Part shown: one piece after another, positions 4,889-15,893 of the stretch
How positions within the stretch are numbered: the first letter of the stretch is position 1
How the letters are laid out: each line of letters opens with the position of its first letter
Origin: a virus
Length of the DNA: 20,050 nt
Strand: one strand, 5' to 3'
Virus record (IMG/VR): IMGVR_UViG_3300027749_000560
Span: 1 to 20,050 of that record
The notes under the pieces: generated by a model
Told to the model about the DNA's origin: nothing
Databases searched by the model: none
The model's input: only the letters and a program-made list of their open reading frames with translations
Program-made: the position numbers and the translations under genes

Positions 4889-7378
4889 TTAAGGTCTGTC
4901 AGGAAGCATATTGCTTAATTCGATTCTTGTTACATAGTCTGAGGCTTCTTTAGCACCACCATAACGACCAATGTCACGCAACATAGATTTGGTTGCCGAT
5001 ACTGTTGGTAATGCCATGCCAGCGCCAGGCTTCAACATTTCGTTTGCCGTCATTTGTTCAACTTTGCTAGTTACTTCTGGCGCGGCAAGGTTAGACAAAA
5101 CAGAGCCTACTGGAGATTGAGTTATAAAGTTGACTGCTTGACCAGCAAGCCCAACCCCTTGTCGTGCGGCATTTGCAATGTCTGTTTTGGAATAGTTTTT
5201 GTATTCACCGACTGGGCCTACTTTAGCGTTGTGCGAAGTAAGTTGAATGTCTGCAAGATGTTGCTTTTCAGCATCAGTTAAAAACTCACCCAATTTAGGT
5301 GCAACAAATGGGTCTTCTAATTGTTTTGTAAAAGTTGCATGAGCAAGGTCATCGCCACCAATAGTAATTCCCTTATCTTTAAGCCTATTTGTTAAAGTGG
5401 CTTTCATTAAATTTCTATATGTTGGGTCTTTGACTTCATTTGCCAAAGATTGCACTTCTTCTAAACTTCCACCAATGATGTGTTTTCTAACAAAATCTTC
5501 TGGTTCTGCCGCACCTTTGGTGTTATCTAATTTTGATGCAACAGCGTTATAGGCTGGAATATTTTTTTCTCTATCAAATTCTTGTTTAGCCAATCTAATA
5601 GCCGTATCTCGCGCTTCTTTGATAGGCAAATTTTCTACTGGCATAGGTAGATTTTCTAATTCTGAACGAGTTATGCCTAATACGTGCTTTACATTTCCAT
5701 CATTTGTGCTTCTTTGTGCAGATGCAATTTCTCCAGCAAGGTTTTTAAAGAGATTCATATTCATCTCTTTTTTGCCTTCTGCATATTGCATCAATTTTTT
5801 ATAAATTACTGGTGCGCCTTCTTTCAAAAAATCTAATTTATCTTCAGCATTTAAATTATTGATTACATTATCAGCCCACATTTTTCCATCGACAGGAAAT
5901 TTGCCACCATTTAACTTTTCTAAATCGTCATAGGCTTTACTAATGTCTGTACGATTATTTTTAATTTGCCCACCAATTTTCTCTATATGTTTTTTAGCAA
6001 GCCCATATTCATCAGCAATATTTCCATATTCACCACTTGCTTTTTTATGCAAAGTATCAAGGTTTTCAACAAGTTTTTTGCTAATGTTTGCAATGTGGGT
6101 TCTTACATCTTGATTAGCACCAATAGCGTTTTGTTCATTACTCCAAATGCCTGGGTCGCGCGTTGCCATGCCAGGCAATAAGTGCGTTCCCAATCTGTTA
6201 GCCGCGGCTTGGTTTTTGATGCCTTCTTCGTTTGGAATATGCCCTTTGTTTATGTCTGATACAAATTGTTTTTGTACTTGTGGGGTAGCAGACTGTAAAT
6301 CTATGTGCGCTTGTGGAGAAAGGTTGGCTTTTCTTGCGGCTTCTGCCACCACTTGGTCTGGCACTTTGCCCATCAATTTATTTGTAAATGCTCTTGCTAA
6401 ATCCATGCCAGCATTACCAACAGCCCCTACGCCACGCGCTATGCCAGCACCAATCGGGTAACCAGCAAAACCACCAGCGCCACCAAAGAAAATTTGTTTG
6501 GCTTTTTCTTCGCCATAGTTTTTTATGTCTGTAACTGGTTCTAATGCGCCTACAAATGCACCGCCTTTAGCAGACTGATACAACTTGTTAGCCAACGATG
6601 CACCTTCACCAATAGCGCCAACACCCGTAGGCGCAACGCCTGCAACAGTTCCCAAAATCTTTCCACCACCCGTCATATAAGGGCGTGACTTTTCGTATGG
6701 TGCTATTTCAGCGTTAATCTTTTTAATGCCCTCTAAAGCATCTTTTACTAGAGCGTTACCCGCTTCTTCAGCGCCAACGGCTTGCAAACCTTTGCCAATC
6801 AGTTGTTGACCGCCAAGTGCAAGTGAACCAAATCCGTGTGCCGCACCCATAGCAATAGATTCTGCGCGAGATGGTGGCTCTGCTTTCTGTACGGGCTTTG
6901 TTGTTTCGCCCTTTTTTTCTGGTGGCGTTTGAGAAATTAAATCAAAGTCTTTTGCATACTTTGTTGAAACTTCTGGTTGAAATTCTGACTTTGGATTGAT
7001 AGTTACATGAAACGGGTCTTTGCTACCCAATGGGCGATGCAACCCAACTTGTTCAAGATACTTATCTGGAACGCTTGCGCTGATGTCAACAGCATCGGTG
7101 TGATACAAGTCTTTTTTTACTTCATCTGGGTTAATAGGCATATTTATGCCTTTTTCACCCTTCTTGTAACGCTCAAACAAGTCTTTTTGTTGTGCGTATG
7201 TACGAACACCACTTGTCAAAGGCAAATCTTTGCCTGTATCGCGTTTGTAGATTTCTTGTAATTTCTCTAAGCGTGTACGCAAATCAGAATCTAAACCAGA
7301 TAAATCTACTTGGTTAGATTTGTTGTCGCTAGACATTCCAGCGCTCATCAGTTCAAAATCTTTTGCGAACTTGGTCAT
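4889..7378 (-). CDS. Ejection/internal virion protein with M15-like peptidase domain
   Basis: An 829-residue protein, the largest of three consecutive ejection-type proteins. Residues 35-130 resemble an M15/VanY-type peptidase: LPLTSGVRT (53-60), LYHTDAVDIS with H93 and D98, GLHRPLGSKDPFHVTI with H124. This would let the protein open peptidoglycan during DNA entry, as internal virion proteins with lytic domains do in T7 and relatives. The H-to-D spacing is two residues shorter than the usual seven. Two copies of a K-(F/Y)-A-K-D-F-x-L-x-S motif (3-12, 140-149) flank the domain. Glycine/alanine-rich stretches (173-205, 236-280, 298-325) could insert into membranes. The rest is helical (HIEKIGGQIKNN…). 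By position it corresponds to P22 gp16, but sequence homology is not established. It overlaps the preceding gene by ATGA. Confidence 0.75.
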   Translation of the reverse strand: MTKFAKDFELMSAGMSSDNKSNQVDLSGLDSDLRTRLEKLQEIYKRDTGKDLPLTSGVRTYAQQKDLFERYKKGEKGINMPINPDEVKKDLYHTDAVDISASVPDKYLEQVGLHRPLGSKDPFHVTINPKSEFQPEVSTKYAKDFDLISQTPPEKKGETTKPVQKAEPPSRAESIAMGAAHGFGSLALGGQQLIGKGLQAVGAEEAGNALVKDALEGIKKINAEIAPYEKSRPYMTGGGKILGTVAGVAPTGVGAIGEGASLANKLYQSAKGGAFVGALEPVTDIKNYGEEKAKQIFFGGAGGFAGYPIGAGIARGVGAVGNAGMDLARAFTNKLMGKVPDQVVAEAARKANLSPQAHIDLQSATPQVQKQFVSDINKGHIPNEEGIKNQAAANRLGTHLLPGMATRDPGIWSNEQNAIGANQDVRTHIANISKKLVENLDTLHKKASGEYGNIADEYGLAKKHIEKIGGQIKNNRTDISKAYDDLEKLNGGKFPVDGKMWADNVINNLNAEDKLDFLKEGAPVIYKKLMQYAEGKKEMNMNLFKNLAGEIASAQRSTNDGNVKHVLGITRSELENLPMPVENLPIKEARDTAIRLAKQEFDREKNIPAYNAVASKLDNTKGAAEPEDFVRKHIIGGSLEEVQSLANEVKDPTYRNLMKATLTNRLKDKGITIGGDDLAHATFTKQLEDPFVAPKLGEFLTDAEKQHLADIQLTSHNAKVGPVGEYKNYSKTDIANAARQGVGLAGQAVNFITQSPVGSVLSNLAAPEVTSKVEQMTANEMLKPGAGMALPTVSATKSMLRDIGRYGGAKEASDYVTRIELSNMLPDRP

Positions 7379-8769: not shown

Positions 8770-9603
8770 TTATCCTAATTGTGGTTTATATGAAATGCCT
8801 TGTGCGCCACCCATATCTGGATTTGGTTGGGTTATGCCTTGAGGCGCACTTGATGTATATCCACCCAATGAATAATTTACTCCACCAGTTTTTGGCGCAA
8901 GTAACTGTGACAACATATATTGATTGCCAGCATTTTGCAAACCACCAGAAATAGCGTTAGCCGCACCTACTGTGCCACCCGCCTGTGCCGCGCCTATACC
9001 TTGAATTGTGCCGCCAATAGCATTAGCACCAGTTGTTCCTGTGCTTGCGCTTGTGTTGTATGCGTTTTGACCTAAACCAGCGATTCCAGCCAAAGTGTTG
9101 TAAATATTACTTCTTTGGTTTTGATAGTTAGTAAATGCGTTTTGATAAGCATTACCAGCATAATCTTGGGTATATCTATCTAAACCAGTCAAAGCGTTAC
9201 CGCCAATTACTCCACCACCTACATTTGCCATTCTGTTGGTTGCTTCTTGACCTTGACCCAACATAAAATCGTAATTAGGCGCTAAACCAGATTTTAAATC
9301 TTCTGCATTAAATTGATGAGTTAAATACCCAGTACCTGTACCAGTAGCACCAGTTGGATTGCCACTAGCATCGTACATTCCATAAGTACCAGAACCTAAT
9401 CCACCTAGTTGATTAAGGGCGTTATAACCAGCCGCACGACCAGGCGCACCTTGTTGTTGGATAGTGTTGAACTGCTGTTTTTGGAAATCTAACGCTTGTT
9501 GCGCTGATTGTGCTTGTGTGTTAGCCGCACTTTTAGCCGCGTCAGCGCCAATAAGTCCACTAACTAAGTTTGTTCCCGCTACTGCGGTCATTCCCCATGT
9601 CAT
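8770..9603 (-). CDS. DNA transfer protein p32-like ejection protein
   Basis: A 277-residue glycine/asparagine/glutamine-rich protein. The N-terminus (GTNLVSGLIGADAAKSAANT, then AQQALDFQKQQFNTIQQQ) has a hydrophobic stretch and a glutamine-rich helix. The centre has NYDFMLGQGQEATNRMANVGG and YTQDYAGNAYQNAFTNYQNQ followed by SNIYNTLAGIAGLGQNAYNT. This Y-A-G-x-A-Y-x-x-A-F-x-N-Y…I-Y-N-x-L-A-G-x-A-G-L-G-Q block is typical of phage proteins annotated as DNA transfer protein p32 and placed with P22 gp7-like ejection proteins. It is released with the DNA at infection. It overlaps the cupin gene upstream by four bases. Confidence 0.8.
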   Translation of the reverse strand: MTWGMTAVAGTNLVSGLIGADAAKSAANTQAQSAQQALDFQKQQFNTIQQQGAPGRAAGYNALNQLGGLGSGTYGMYDASGNPTGATGTGTGYLTHQFNAEDLKSGLAPNYDFMLGQGQEATNRMANVGGGVIGGNALTGLDRYTQDYAGNAYQNAFTNYQNQRSNIYNTLAGIAGLGQNAYNTSASTGTTGANAIGGTIQGIGAAQAGGTVGAANAISGGLQNAGNQYMLSQLLAPKTGGVNYSLGGYTSSAPQGITQPNPDMGGAQGISYKPQLG

Positions 9604-10139
9604 AGCAATTCCCCTTTATTTTGTGGCGCAGAGGCTATAAACCCCATTTCTTCGTAAGTTGGCGCAATAACTTCTTCTTCAATCTTGGCAAGGTTTTCCT
9701 CACCCTGATGTTCAGTCATGTGAACTGTTACCCAAATAGTGTCCTCTTCGGCATACACAGCCCGCTTTAAACCTACTTCAGAAACAAATATATGAGGCGC
9801 TTCAAAATACTTTTTACCGAATTCTGTGGCAACAGATACCTTGCCTTTCATAATAAAGTTCAAATGCTGATGCCTGTGAATCTTTCCTATGATGATTGTT
9901 CCCTTTGGGATAAACATTTCTCTTGCATAAGTTCCACATCCATATTTCTCGTCAATAGGCGAAAAATGGTGCGTTAACTTGCAATCTTCCAATGTTGATT
10001 CAATCTCGCCTTTAGCAATTTTGTCTATCAAACCATTCTGGAAAACCATTACATTATGGCGAAATTGGACTTTTTCTGGCGTGTTTTGACCTTGTTGCGC
10101 GATACCGCCAACAGCAAGTAAATCAATGACTTCGCTCAT
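9600..10139 (-). CDS. Cupin-fold protein in the virion operon
   Basis: A 179-residue soluble protein with a single cupin-like beta barrel. FIPKGTIIIGKIHRHQHLNF (about 76-95) and IMKGKVSV supply the first cupin motif, with H88, H90 and H92 as likely metal ligands. HIFVSEVGLKRAVYAEEDTIWVTVH (116-140) is the second motif, with H140. No substrate can be assigned. The place between a 78-residue tail-type protein and the p32-like ejection protein suggests a virion-assembly or structural use of the fold. The frame stays open to an ATG at 10178, but those codons lie over the conserved end of the upstream gene, so ATG 10139 or 10148 is preferred; none has a clear ribosome site. Confidence 0.7.
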   Translation of the reverse strand: MSEVIDLLAVGGIAQQGQNTPEKVQFRHNVMVFQNGLIDKIAKGEIESTLEDCKLTHHFSPIDEKYGCGTYAREMFIPKGTIIIGKIHRHQHLNFIMKGKVSVATEFGKKYFEAPHIFVSEVGLKRAVYAEEDTIWVTVHMTEHQGEENLAKIEEEVIAPTYEEMGFIASAPQNKGELL

Positions 10140-10140
10140 G

Positions 10141-10377
10141 TTAGACATTGTAATATGGCACTTTGTATGGCACACCATTTATGGTAATGTTTATAAACCC
10201 AACGGGGTTAGCAGGCAAAGTACCTGACCCAGCCGTAGCCGTTGTCGCAGAACTGAAGTTGAGAAGATTAAGGAAGAACTGTTGCCATGCCCTTGTGGGG
10301 CGCTTAGTCTGTCCATCCAAGAACTCAGTCTGTGGGTATGGGTTTAACTGCGTGGTATTGGAAATGCCCGTAGCCAT
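10141..10377 (-). CDS. Small tail-associated phage protein
   Basis: A 78-residue protein. The first half (PYPQTEFLDGQTKRPTRAWQ, FFLNLLNF) is probably helical. The second half ends with PANPVGFINITINGVPYKVPYYNV, a short beta motif (G-x-I-x-x-x-I-N-G-x-x-Y-K-V-P-Y-Y) that recurs at the C-terminus of small proteins encoded beside head-tail connector genes in podoviruses. Its role is unknown but a structural one is likely. Its start overlaps the stop of the gp10-like gene as TAATG. Confidence 0.75.
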   Translation of the reverse strand: MATGISNTTQLNPYPQTEFLDGQTKRPTRAWQQFFLNLLNFSSATTATAGSGTLPANPVGFINITINGVPYKVPYYNV

Positions 10378-12263
10378 TAGTTTTCCCCACCAGTTGCTTT
10401 TAGGTTAGCCGAAATAATCACAGCGTTGATAGGGTCGCTCACGACCACTTCAAACACTCTATCTCTAGCCATACCCAATCTGCGCCAAATAGCACGATTC
10501 TTATACTTACCGATTTGACCAATAGAAGTCCAATGTTCACTTGACCATGTAGAGCCACCATCGTTTGACCAGCGAAGCATAGCCTGCGGGTCAGCGCCAA
10601 CGACCTCATCGTTTAATGGGGTAGTGATGCCCGTGATGCCAACGCCAGGCTGAAACTGTATTTGCAGTTCATCAAAGTATTGGCGTTGTAGGTCAGTCAC
10701 CAAGTGTGGCGCTCTGCGAAGCCTACGGGTGTACTGTCCGTTGTCGGTGTAGTTGTTCTTGTCTATCTCATAGATTGAGCCGTCTTGGTAGTCACCCACC
10801 AAAACTAGCCCTTGGAACACCGCACAGCAATTACCTCTGTGACGGGTATAAGTTCCGTCATTGTTGCTGTATAACCATTTATGCCACATTCCAGAGGCTA
10901 GGTCATACGCCCAAGTTAACTCTAGAGTAGGGAAAGACACTACATAAACTTCGTGACCTTCTAACTGGTAAGTCCAAGCAATAGCATCATCTACATATTG
11001 ATTGGTTATGGAGTTCTCAACAGCGTGGTTAGATATGCGGGTAGGCACATAGCCCTTCATCTGCATAATCTGCGCTTGACCTCGGTTGTTGCGCGAGACA
11101 TAACAGAACGAATCACCAAATCTAGCAAGGGAAAACTTAGCCGCAATGCCGTGTTGGGTGTTAGTGCCTGGGATTCTTGAAAAAGGAAAAGGGTTTCCAC
11201 CTACATCTGTCCAAACCTCAGAGGAGTTCTCACCCATTAGGTAAACTTCTCGGTGGTCAACAATAAGCGCCACTAGGTTATCTGGTGAGCCATCTTTGCT
11301 AGAAAACGATGTGTTGCCAGAAATAGGCGATGACACGCCAGATGCACCAAATTGTTGTGATGCTGGTCTGTTGTATACAAAGTAGTTATCAACAATGTCA
11401 CAAGTCTCACCCCCTGTGAACGCACCATCGCTTGATGGCAAAACAGTCCAATTAAGGGCGTACATCGTGATGGATGCGATTGTCTGTGAGTTGTTTACTG
11501 TGTAAGTTCCTGCGCCACCAGTACCCGTACCCAACGCAGTAATGATGGTTTGTGTAGTAATGCCAGCGCCTTGGATGGTCTGACCGACATACAAAGTACC
11601 ACTAGCAACAGATGCAACAGTTAGCGTAGTTCCAGATATGGCGGCAGTAATTACAGCGCCAGGACTTGATGTGTACATCTGGCTAGAAGCGATTGATTGC
11701 GACAACCCAAGGGTATATGTACCCGTTCCACCAGTTCCAGTTCCCAAAGCCGTTATAACTGTCTCTTGAAGTGCGCCAACAGCAAATAGGTTTTGACCAA
11801 CAGCGATAGTGCCAGATTTAACAGAAGTAACAGTCAAAGTCGTGCCAGAAGTAGAGCCTGTAAACACAGCGGCAGTCACAGTAGAAATGCGCCATGTATA
11901 GCGATATGTGCCGTCTACGATATAAGCGTTGATTCCGTTGTCAGAAATGGTGACGCGACCCGTTGTAGTGTTTAACTGCCCAATCATTGTGGGAGTCAAA
12001 AGGCTGTTAAACACATAGACATAAGCGCCACAAACGGCAAGCATCCTTGTGCCACCAGATAGCGTTCTAAGCCCACGAACCTCTTGTTGGTTGGGCAAAA
12101 TGGCTTTAATCGTCAGACCTGGCGTTGGGTATAGCGCTACCACCCCTCGGTCACCAGGCTGTTTAAGTGGGTCAACTTCTGGAAGAAAGTTTATACACTC
12201 ATTCGAGTCTTGGTAAACCGAAGTCGCTGGGTAGGAGGGGCCAACAAAGCCAAAGTCTGCCAT
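10377..12263 (-). CDS. P22 gp10-like packaged DNA stabilisation protein
   Basis: A 628-residue head-closure protein related to P22 gp10, which joins the portal/gp4 ring to the tail needle and keeps packaged DNA in the capsid. The N-terminal [83 protein letters not shown] and ASGMWHKW runs are the usual landmarks of the family and describe a beta-propeller-like body. Two tandem 68-residue beta-rich repeats (about 131-198 and 203-270) interrupt that body and explain why the protein is longer than P22 gp10. It is joined to the gp4-like gene by TAATG (12261-12265), so the two head-completion proteins are coupled. Confidence 0.85.
11454..11873 (-). repeat. Two tandem beta-domain repeats in the gp10-like gene
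   Basis: Units at 11670-11873 and 11454-11657 encode about 68 residues each. Both share S-G-T-T-L-T-V-x-S-V-x-S-G-T-x-x-V-G-Q, then [13 protein letters not shown]-x-G-T-Y-T, then S-Q-x-I-A-S. The DNA copies have diverged, so the duplication is not recent. A third, more divergent unit lies in the gp4-like gene at 12791-13003. Confidence 0.8.
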
Positions 12264-13243
12264 TAAGTAAATCCACCATTTAATATAAACCCTGCATCTT
12301 TGGCGCGACCAACCAGTAATGAATCTGGGTATCTTGCAGTTTGCAATGGTGACATATTGGTGCGCTTGAGGGTTGCTTTTGCTTGTGCGGCAAAAGCGTT
12401 AATCATGGCAATTTGAGTTTGTGAGGCTTTGCCATACATAGGCATTAAACGCTCTGCCAAGCACCATCTGAGGCACATTGAATAGCCTTGTGGCAACGCG
12501 ATGTTGTCGTACAAAGTGTTGTATCTGCTAAAAATGGTGTTAGCAAACATGTGCATCTCGCCCTGTGAGGGGTTTGGCCACACAAAGAGGTTTCCCGTAT
12601 CAGCGCCAGCATTGAAATACAACGCTTTTGGCCACGGGCCATTCAGCGTCTTTAGACCAATCATCTCGTAATCTTCTAACGCCAAAATAGATATTGGGTA
12701 ATCCAATCCACCGCTTACGATGGGCATACCATTTGAGTTAGTGTTAATACGAACAAAAGCAGAGTTAATACCCAAAGGCTTTTCGTAGTAAGCAGTTATT
12801 GTGGTTGATGAAACTGTCTGGCTAATGTCCAGTTGATAAGTACCAACCTCATTTACATTACCGCCAGCGCCCGTCAAAAAGTCCACAATCTTTGTGCCTG
12901 CTGTGATTCCTGTGCCTTTAAGGGTTTGCCCTTGTGCCACAGCGCCAGAACCAATAGCGGTAACAGTTAGCACATCACCAGTAATTGAGCCTGTGAAAGA
13001 TGCACCAATGAAGTTTGCGGTAGACGCTACGGGGCCAATCGTGTATTGGGTCTGCCCCGCAATGACTGGGAAGATAATCTCAGTCACATTAAATACCATC
13101 ATGTCCTCATTTGACCATTGGTCAATGAGGTCGTTGAGCATATCCAGAGCGTCTGTCGCGGCATCCGAAGTCGGTGTTTCACCAGCCTCTAAAGCGCCTA
13201 TGTCTTTTAATGCTCTGCTAATAATGTCGATGGGCTGAGTCAT
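12263..13243 (-). CDS. P22 gp4-like tail accessory factor
   Basis: A 326-residue protein of the P22 gp4 type, the ring that binds under the portal after DNA packaging and begins head closure. Family landmarks are [40 protein letters not shown], the strand [13 protein letters not shown], then after an insertion [49 protein letters not shown] and the helical [22 protein letters not shown]. The usual P22 gp4 is about half this size. Part of the excess is a beta domain inserted at residues 81-151, matching the repeats in the neighbouring gp10-like protein. The gene lies three bases after the preceding one and shares TAATG with the next. Confidence 0.85.
12791..13003 (-). repeat. Related beta-domain insertion in the gp4-like gene
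   Basis: This encodes residues 81-151, with [16 protein letters not shown]-x-[17 protein letters not shown] and S-Q-T-V-S-S-T-T-I. The order of motifs is the same as in the two repeats at 11454-11873. It separates the strand TQYTIGP from EKPLGIN, which are adjacent in a standard gp4 fold. Confidence 0.75.
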
Positions 13244-13818: not shown

Positions 13819-14285
13819 GCCGCAATCTCCATAAGTGTTAATGTAGAAGTTGTTGCATTAGAAGAATAATCATTTATTCTTGCGGCATTTCCCGCAGAGG
13901 TGCTTGCTAGTCTAATGGTATAACTTATTGCACTTGTCGTTGCTGGAGAATCAAGATATGTCAAACTTGAAGAACTATATACAATATTAGATGCATATTG
14001 AGCAAGATACGCTAAAACTGTTCCAGCATTGTTATTTAAAGAAACATTAAGATACCCTGTCAATCCATTAGCATTACAAAGTATTAAAACTTTGTTAGAA
14101 GCGTTTGATGGCGTAATCGTAGTTGTTAATACTGTTGTAAATGATGTTGATGTAGTTGATGTATAAGTATTTACTAAAGTACTTACAACTTGCAAAACCT
14201 TACCAGAAGATGCTTGCACCGCAGATGTTCCACCCGCTGTTACTGGGAATGTGATACCAGCCGTTCCATCCAATGTAAGTGCCAT
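13815..14285 (-). CDS. Tail fibre-like beta protein
   Basis: A 156-residue protein rich in threonine, serine and alanine with almost no charged residues, typical of trimeric fibre tips. The opening ALTLDGTAGITFPVTAGGTS and SSGKVLQVVST are found at the start of many short phage fibre proteins. The rest alternates short beta strands and ends TSTLTLMEIAA, a common last strand. It has no enzyme motif. It shares TAATG with the S74 fibre gene; GGAGAG six bases upstream of its ATG is a good ribosome site. It is probably part of the receptor-binding apparatus. Confidence 0.7.
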   Translation of the reverse strand: MALTLDGTAGITFPVTAGGTSAVQASSGKVLQVVSTLVNTYTSTTSTSFTTVLTTTITPSNASNKVLILCNANGLTGYLNVSLNNNAGTVLAYLAQYASNIVYSSSSLTYLDSPATTSAISYTIRLASTSAGNAARINDYSSNATTSTLTLMEIAA

Positions 14286-15235
14286 TATTTGCTCTCCAAG
14301 GCCACCACACGGGCGGTTAGTGCGTCATTCTTTGCTGAAAGTTCTTGTATAGCCGCTGTTAGTGTTGCTACTAGGAATGATGTGTCAATGCCTTGATATA
14401 CGGGGTTTCCGTGTTCATCTACTGCATCTTTAGAACCAGTTACACATTCTGGTACTACTGCTTGCAGTTCATGTGCAATAAAACCTTGACTAGCAGAACC
14501 ATCAATTTTCCATTTATATGTAACGGGTTTTAATTGTGAAACAGTATTTAATGCACCCGTCATAGGTGCAATGTTTTCTTTTAAGCGGTGGTCAGAAGAT
14601 GTGTTGTAAGCAGTAGAAGAAGCGCCAGGAACAATAGTTCCAACAGTTGAACCAGCAACATTATTAAAAACCATGGCATTGAAACTATCAGTTACTGATG
14701 CTTGAATTCCCATTCCCCATTTAGAGGCTGGATTAACTTTTAGATTTATATAAGCCGCAGAACTAACAGCACTTGTAGTCCCCACCAGCAAGTTACCGCT
14801 AGAGTCGATACGCATACGCTCTGTTGTAGAACTATTTGTACCGCTAGTTCCAAAAGTTAAAGCCGCCCCGTTTTCATAAGCAGAAAACTCATAGTTTCCG
14901 CTAGATAAACGACCTATGCGACCATAAATAGAAGCGTTATAAGAAAACTGCGCCTGTGCAGTTGTAGTATTAAGAATGTCAAGTTTGCTTCCTGGCGAAG
15001 CAGTACCAATCCCCACATTCTGTGAAGTATCAATAGTTACTGCCGTAGTAGTTCCATTAGATGCAAGTGTTAATGCGCCAGCAGAAGTTACTTTTCCAGC
15101 AAAAGTAGCGTTTTGACTAGTATCAATAGTTACTGCCGTAGTGCCAGCAGTTTGTAGTGCTAATGAGCCAGAATTGTCACCAGTAGCAATAAAGCCACCC
15201 GCCCCCGCAGTAGAGGCATTAAGCGTAGTTGTCAA
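14285..15235 (-). CDS. Tail fibre with peptidase S74 chaperone domain
   Basis: A 316-residue fibre. The N-terminal LNASTAGAGGFIATGDNSGS and two copies of TTAVTIDTSQN (about 32-42 and 63-73) are fibre repeats; a beta region with ERMRIDSSGNLLVGT follows. The C-terminal 105 residues are an intramolecular chaperone auto-processing (peptidase S74) domain: SSDHRLKENI (213-222) gives the Ser-Asp and Lys signature for self-cleavage, then GFIAHELQAVVPECVTG and a coiled-coil end. The domain trimerises the fibre and is then cut off. The start is taken as TTG at 15235 because AAGGAG (15243-15248) lies seven bases upstream; another TTG at 15259 would add eight residues. It overlaps the end of the endonuclease gene. 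Confidence 0.85.
   Translation of the reverse strand: MTTTLNASTAGAGGFIATGDNSGSLALQTAGTTAVTIDTSQNATFAGKVTSAGALTLASNGTTTAVTIDTSQNVGIGTASPGSKLDILNTTTAQAQFSYNASIYGRIGRLSSGNYEFSAYENGAALTFGTSGTNSSTTERMRIDSSGNLLVGTTSAVSSAAYINLKVNPASKWGMGIQASVTDSFNAMVFNNVAGSTVGTIVPGASSTAYNTSSDHRLKENIAPMTGALNTVSQLKPVTYKWKIDGSASQGFIAHELQAVVPECVTGSKDAVDEHGNPVYQGIDTSFLVATLTAAIQELSAKNDALTARVVALESK
15027..15142 (-). repeat. 23-bp perfect direct repeat in the S74 fibre gene
   Basis: The 23 bases at 15027-15049 recur exactly at 15120-15142, 93 bases (31 codons) apart. They encode the shared T-A-V-T-I-D-T of the two fibre repeats. The identity at DNA level suggests a fairly recent duplication or gene conversion between fibre units. 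Confidence 0.8.
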
Positions 15236-15893
15236 TTTGTTTCTCCTTGCAGTTGTCAAAATGCCACCTAGGCATTGCTGTTACCCCGCCTTGCTTACTG
15301 CAATGAGGACAAGTAATTATTTCATGTTTACGCCCTTTATGGGCATTACTTAACGATTGCCGACCAGCATCAGACAATACAGTTCTTGGTTTGTTTGCTT
15401 TGATTTTGGCAATAGTTTCTGCCGTATGTTTTATGCCTTTACGATGACTTGGTTTGCCAATCTTGGCATCACTTAGTTTTTGCTTTACATCATCAGGCGT
15501 TTCCATGCCTTTATTCCATGCAGTTTTAAACAAAGAAATTTGCTTCTTAATAATGCCTTTTCCTTTGTTTGGCGGTGTTTTACCAAGACCATACTGGTTT
15601 CCATAAACAGAAGGAGGTTTCCCCCCGCCTTTGGTTATATTCCAACCTATTTCGTTCTGCGCTCTTAACTTTGTTTCAATCATCAAACAATAGGCTTCAT
15701 CAGCAATTAACAATACTTTTTTGATAAGAGCATCCCAACCATATTTTTTTATAGCATTTCCAAGATGAGGGTTTTGTGCTTCACGCTTGTGGCGATTCCA
15801 TCTAGCACGAACATTATTGGACACACCAATGTATCCCTGACTGAACATATCTGTATGGTCAGGGTGGTGAATCCAATAGACGCTAGATGTCAT
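15219..15893 (-). CDS. GIY-YIG homing endonuclease with NUMOD3-like repeats and zinc finger
   Basis: A 224-residue free-standing homing endonuclease. VYWIHHP…QGYIGVSNN (5-27) is the GIY-YIG motif, R31 and H35 lie in RARWNRH, and E73 in MIETKLRAQ is the metal-binding catalytic glutamate. Short glycine/lysine repeats of the NUMOD3 DNA-binding kind follow: PPNKGKG (107-113), WNKGM (126-130), KIGKPSHRKGIKHT (144-157) and AHKGRK (184-189). The end, CPHCSKQGG…RWHFDNCK, has C195, C198, H211 and C215 as a C2HC zinc finger. It would nick or cut a related phage genome lacking the gene and copy itself across. It sits between two fibre genes, starts in the stop codon of the small XkdW-like gene, and its last codons contain the next gene's ribosome site. 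Confidence 0.9.
   Translation of the reverse strand: MTSSVYWIHHPDHTDMFSQGYIGVSNNVRARWNRHKREAQNPHLGNAIKKYGWDALIKKVLLIADEAYCLMIETKLRAQNEIGWNITKGGGKPPSVYGNQYGLGKTPPNKGKGIIKKQISLFKTAWNKGMETPDDVKQKLSDAKIGKPSHRKGIKHTAETIAKIKANKPRTVLSDAGRQSLSNAHKGRKHEIITCPHCSKQGGVTAMPRWHFDNCKEKQIDNYA
15227..15259 (-). promoter_or_regulatory. Ribosome site AAGGAG with paired TTG starts in a 9-bp repeat
   Basis: AAGGAG at 15243-15248 lies seven bases before TTG 15235. The nonamer TTGACAACT occurs twice on the minus strand, at 15251-15259 and 15227-15235, so each copy opens with an in-frame TTG. The upstream copy also has a weaker AGGTGG before it. The site lies within the last codons of the endonuclease. Confidence 0.6.

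Follow-up and report, generated by a model that had tools for sequence, protein, structure and literature searches.

Mobile beta domains on virions and inserted domains in nozzle proteins are already known from tailed phages. The Ig-like domains of tailed phages are exchanged horizontally and are found in head, tail and sheath proteins (PMC9230969). The propellers of T7, SU10 and phicrAss001 bear nozzle or Ig-like domains that emerge at blade 2/3 (PMC6702177, PMC9509320, PMC10172136). The nozzle tip of T7 is connected through a blade-3 loop (PMC6702177), and phicrAss001 has two Ig-like domains, one placed between blades 2 and 3 and the other within blade 3 (PMC10172136). The adaptors of T7 and SU10 carry a fibre dock, which is reported to be absent in P22 (PMC6702177, PMC9509320). 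New to the locus described here are the module family, the use of two insertion sites together, and a gp10 hairpin that has been used repeatedly.

The window, which is the whole 20,050-base stretch of the viral record that was analysed, encodes a beta module of approximately 66 residues three times, and the module is found nowhere else in the record. Two copies lie in a gp10-like nozzle protein and one in a gp4-like head-tail adaptor:

10377..12263, minus strand: gp10-like (Hc3) nozzle protein, 628 aa (phrog_578, 4.4e-96).
11457..11873, minus strand: insert in the propeller of the gp10-like protein, two tandem modules in one hairpin, aa 131-269.
11667..11873, minus strand: first module in the gp10-like protein, aa 131-199, with the module copy at 11673-11852.
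11454..11657, minus strand: second module in the gp10-like protein, aa 203-270, with the module copy at 11457-11645.
12263..13243, minus strand: gp4-like adaptor between head and tail, 326 aa, with a Pfam match to SU10_adaptor above the cut-off (4.8e-9).
12791..13027, minus strand: insert in the beta domain of the adaptor, one module and an extra NVNE-type loop, aa 73-151.
12794-12988, minus strand: module copy of the adaptor, within the gp4-like open reading frame.

The initial annotation had described three copies of the module that interrupt the gp10-like protein twice. The number of copies stands, but the gp10-like protein is interrupted only once, by a tandem pair (139 aa) at what is a single hairpin in module-free homologues. 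Aligned in pairs under BLOSUM62, the three copies score 198, 127 and 132, against at most 88, 80 and 77 in 2,000 shuffles per pair. The copies are 60-63% and 44-46% identical and have a common consensus frame, G..LTV....SG....GQ.....G....T.I....TG.GG..GTY....SQ...S. They are repeats at the protein level only; a DNA repeat scan of the record found at least 60 families, none of the 20 largest of which contains the modules, and the GC content of the modules does not differ from that of the flanks.

The modules are rich in G, T and S, as would be expected if a G/T-rich low-complexity stretch had grown neutrally and served no function. Such neutral growth is very improbable. The pN/pS of the modules is 0.27-0.34 and that of the core 0.22-0.25, values indicative of purifying selection, although pS is close to saturation and the selection on the modules is estimated roughly, which leaves neutral growth some room. 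The lack of a DNA-level repeat among the families listed also speaks against it, as does the fold: in AF2 models, the module is an all-beta unit in both host proteins and is largely predicted with confidence. Moreover, the number of modules is constant at two throughout the clade of gp10 carriers, with extra inserts in only a few members. Because they are under purifying selection, the modules are probably functional.

The gp10-like protein is composed of a seven-bladed beta-propeller and a C-terminal part. Its family aligns with P22 gp10 (hhalign probability 99, E 5.5e-19). In a fold search, its AF2 model (mean pLDDT 83.7, approximately 86-95 across the insert) matched P22 gp10 (8eap_D; Z 36.6, rmsd 5.1, 368 aligned) and more weakly resembled the nozzle proteins of phicrAss001, SU10 and VP1. 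Foldseek also matched the model to a collagen-repeat protein of the giant virus Indivirus ILV1 (BFVD A0A1V0SCQ2; E 8.5e-12, 25% identity), with a low TM of 0.17. In the model, strands 120-125 and 272-275 flank the insert, and the blade concerned is the second full one, counting from the N-terminal end. This blade could be blade 3 under velcro numbering, since the velcro closure makes the blade number ambiguous by one. By analogy, the hairpin would be near the propeller opening that carries the nozzle tip in T7 and SU10.

The gp10 insert is missing from all ten named relatives that were aligned, which have a tight hairpin instead; MW202674 (61% identical) and MW202520 (57%) are among these. P22 gp10 likewise aligns straight through the hairpin in hhalign, with no insert. 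Among 217 distinct full-length homologues, the hairpin has 0-9 residues in 88, approximately 140 residues in 108, and other lengths in the rest. The notion that the repeats are conserved core that was lost in relatives has a negligible probability. The repeats are stable inside the carrier clade and nothing else was found in favour of loss, whereas outgroups down to P22 lack the inserts and the flanks rejoin as a tight hairpin. Sequence comparison shows the modules to be insertions, as the initial annotation had claimed, and not part of the core; the relatives with a tight hairpin and P22 gp10, the homologue in which the repeats were to be looked for, are free of them.

The adaptor has a helix bundle and a beta domain of the fibre-dock type. 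In its AF2 model (mean pLDDT 77.3), the beta-domain strands (52-69 and 158-236) are located between helices 26-45 and 252-270. The four-helix core of the model matches P22 gp4 (8u10_m; Z 14.8, rmsd 2.1, 112 aligned). By sequence, the match to phrog_637 (P22 gp4 / Ad3; E 0.0038) covers residues 1-46 only, and hhalign with P22 gp4 gives a probability of 3. The adaptors of T7, SU10 and LME-1 match the model with Z 9-12 over 172-198 residues, including T7 7ey7_M (Z 10.8 over 172) and SU10 7z47_B (Z 9.0 over 198). Judging from the model, the adaptor is not simply P22-gp4-like but also has a predicted beta "fiber dock" domain of the T7/SU10 kind.

The module interrupts the fibre-dock-type domain of the adaptor model and is placed between YTIGP and an RPL-type stretch. 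Seven of ten named relatives (MW202557, P26218, PAE2, MW202483, DSL-LC05, MW202573 and phiAX1) lack the insert and have just 8-9 residues at this position; MW202520 and MW202674 have it. The insert in the PBR31 adaptor may be a remote cousin of the module (E 1e-4 in a tiny database, hhalign probability 37). In a set of 220 distinct homologues that is enriched for the module, the position after YTIGP is the sole adaptor site with large inserts, and 210 of the homologues have an insert there. The dock-type domain holds one to three extra modules, which seem to be nested in some genomes.

Several other genes of the record were observed in the course of the analysis. A 192-aa protein encoded at 9600-10178, between the gp10-like and ejection genes, has no Pfam match and looks cupin-like by eye (HRHQHLNFIMKGKV). 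A large 829-aa protein (4889-7378) is encoded next to the ejection-protein genes and has a weak N-terminal endolysin/VanY-like match (phrog_2649, 2.5e-4; PF02557, 0.038); it is perhaps an ejected peptidase. An endolysin-like Peptidase_M15_3 gene (1.3e-12) is located at 2154-2603. Inside the virion gene block, a GIY-YIG/NUMOD3 homing-endonuclease-like open reading frame (15219-15893; NUMOD3 1.4e-6, GIY-YIG 7.6e-4) overlaps the TTG start of an S74-chaperone fibre open reading frame (14285-15259).

The order in which the two proteins gained the module can be read from a tree of the gp10 core, built from sampled homologues with the insert removed. All 35 module-carrier representatives form one clade (support 0.74), and the sister clade comprises 35 representatives with no such module in gp10. 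Because the adaptor carries the module in both clades, and more distant phages have it in neither protein, the sampled sequences show that the adaptor module was gained first and the gp10 pair later. In the first set of loci, both proteins contain modules at 134 of the 153 loci with a gp10-like match, and among 80 gp10 loci of the sister group the module is in the adaptor where one was found (77) and never in gp10; these samples were drawn via searches for the module or close homologues, so carrier frequencies are biased upward and the counts are not frequencies.

The joint occurrence at 134 loci would fit a clamp, in which the like domains of two touching proteins pair and stabilise head closure. 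However, the sister group has modules in the adaptor and none in gp10, so pairing is not required, and the two sites are in different parts of the two folds. It is quite unlikely that the modules act as such a clamp. Nor is one shared neck site, as the wording of the initial annotation suggests, supported, as one insert is in the gp10 propeller, probably near the nozzle opening, and the other in the fibre-dock-type domain of the adaptor.

Lateral spread of the module between genes had been offered as an alternative to display at the neck. The mean identity among the three copies is 49-53%, and their identity to the modules of unrelated proteins is 51-53%. In a module tree, which has only 66 columns and weak resolution, each of the three slots forms its own clade. 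Neither the identities nor the slot clades favour copying from one of the two genes to the other, including from gp4 to gp10 within the genome, since the three copies resemble each other no more than they resemble the modules of unrelated proteins. It is most likely, given the separate slot clades and these identities, that the copies were recruited separately from a common pool.

The proposal that the module is a mobile domain is strengthened by its presence in many other virion-surface proteins. These include tail sheath proteins (DUF3383), a neck terminator (PF23961), a cement or minor capsid protein, Collar-type tail fibres, a LamG virion protein and a baseplate wedge protein. Among 42 additional proteins that were scanned, individual members matched families for lambda-D-like decoration, Baseplate_J, capsid and a second type of sheath, and individual members also matched secreted-protein domains. 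One module-bearing member matched a head maturation protease family. In nearly every case that could be named, the host of the module is a virion or secreted protein. Some loci have the module in several proteins: a myovirus-like locus (L128) in three virion proteins, and locus L342 in four proteins, including a sheath, a neck terminator and a head protein. The 30 phage sheath homologues that were listed align in two distinct segments, with at most 78% of the query covered, which is consistent with their lacking the module. The distribution of the module across unrelated proteins shows that it is a mobile domain. The module was also seen in a 1902-aa protein (L354:2217-7922) on a contig binned as Nitrosarchaeum (an archaeal MAG); the contig could be a virus or the result of misbinning.

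Neither Pfam-A nor NCBIfam matches the module, whether it is in gp10, gp4, sheath, cement or fibre proteins, and profile searches found no match among PDB sequences. No module peptide string turned up in a literature search, a weak negative, as sequences are seldom printed in papers. A tblastn search of a phage collection also gave no match, but this is a false negative, probably due to the low-complexity filter, as MW202520 and MW202674 in that collection carry the module. The fold search, which queried whole-protein models, gave weak matches (Z 6.5-7) of the adaptor module to a barrel, domain 2 of EF1A/eEFSec, and to a chain of 124 residues from Arthrobacter phage Bridgette. Curated libraries have no entry for this module family, although it is present on proteins of the head, neck, sheath, baseplate, fibres and short tail.

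The gp10 hairpin is the sole internal site of the protein with inserts longer than approximately 80 residues (128 of the 217 proteins); a second site, near the C-terminus, has inserts of approximately 35-80 residues (76 of 217). Module carriers and close homologues are over-represented in this sample, and its counts do not give frequencies. At least three insert families occur at the hairpin in related genomes. Among distant homologues, one (L367, 24% identical) has a single module of the same family, another (L338) has a different module, and two (L118 and L278) have GYTxAP-type repeats. The L278 homologue (L278:5769-8096), with a 281-aa insert of this other repeat type, adjoins an adaptor with three modules (L278:4332-5756). 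In several carrier-clade members, the second gp10 copy itself contains further nested modules. The gp10-like genes of L127, L107 and L304 were seen to contain other modules inside or between the two modules. Sequence comparison revealed no convincing kinship of the L338, L118/L278-type or nested inserts with the module. It is conceivable, if somewhat short of an even chance, that short-tailed phages use two hairpins, a single fixed site on each ring protein (the gp10 propeller and the adaptor dock), as general plug-in ports into which mobile beta modules are loaded time and again, the gp10 port having taken up the GTYT module, GYTxAP-type repeats, a TGETIIIAGA-type module and nested modules. 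If so, phages would exchange tail surface chemistry at set ports, separately from their fibres and tailspikes.

The most favoured explanation, with a probability of roughly 0.6, is that a mobile surface domain of tailed-phage virions entered a hairpin of the adaptor and then one of the nozzle in a P22-like podovirus lineage, and provides an accessory attachment surface. The first insertion was into the fibre-dock-type beta domain of the adaptor, with 12 copies expected per virion, and the later one, of the tandem pair, into a hairpin on the probable outer side of the hexameric propeller/nozzle, with 12 modules expected; both numbers are taken from P22/T7 stoichiometry. Both sites are tight hairpins that tolerate large inserts. 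Based on homology with the T7, SU10 and phicrAss001 structures, both are likely outward or distal, and the modules would add two rings of surface domains to the short tail. The nozzle ring may make weak contact with host-surface polymers, and the adaptor ring may pack against or hold the tail fibres. An adhesive or docking role is thereby suggested for the modules.

Alternatively, the modules may be structural only, the adaptor copy docking a fibre and the gp10 pair lengthening the nozzle tip to seat the needle or fibres, and neither touching the host. The adaptor insert is indeed within the beta domain that docks fibres in T7 and SU10, and the gp10 insert probably exits the propeller near the nozzle-domain opening. 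However, the same module is found in non-docking proteins (cement, lambda-D-like decoration and tail sheath), and the different insert families in one gp10 slot better fit a generic surface role than a specific interface. A purely structural role is therefore considered unlikely, and an accessory attachment surface is preferred. The results point to specific adaptor and nozzle hairpins where phages alter the tail surface while leaving the fibres untouched. Further, some P22-type gp10 proteins with the insert are approximately 61-63% identical to others without it, making the role of inserted nozzle domains testable through such relatives.

Like the Ig-like domains of phages, for which an accessory surface role has been proposed, the module is a beta domain of small size, found again and again, as an insert or end extension, in many unrelated virion proteins. 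Unlike them, it has no Pfam Ig-like or other Pfam match and sits in adaptor and nozzle hairpins. The phrog_21413 and phrog_38233 profiles include the module, but each describes a whole-protein family (595 and 896 columns; unknown function and tail fiber, respectively) rather than the module. The adaptor resembles T7 gp11 and SU10 gp11 in having a helix bundle and a beta domain, and differs from them in that its dock-type domain carries extra modules. The gp10-like protein, similar to SU10 gp17, T7 gp12 and phicrAss001 gp44, is a seven-bladed propeller with inserted beta domains, which in those proteins are around blades 2-3. In contrast to those nozzles, the protein here is a P22-type gp10 with another family of inserted domain, its nearest sister group is mostly insert-free, and the gain of the domain can be placed on a tree.
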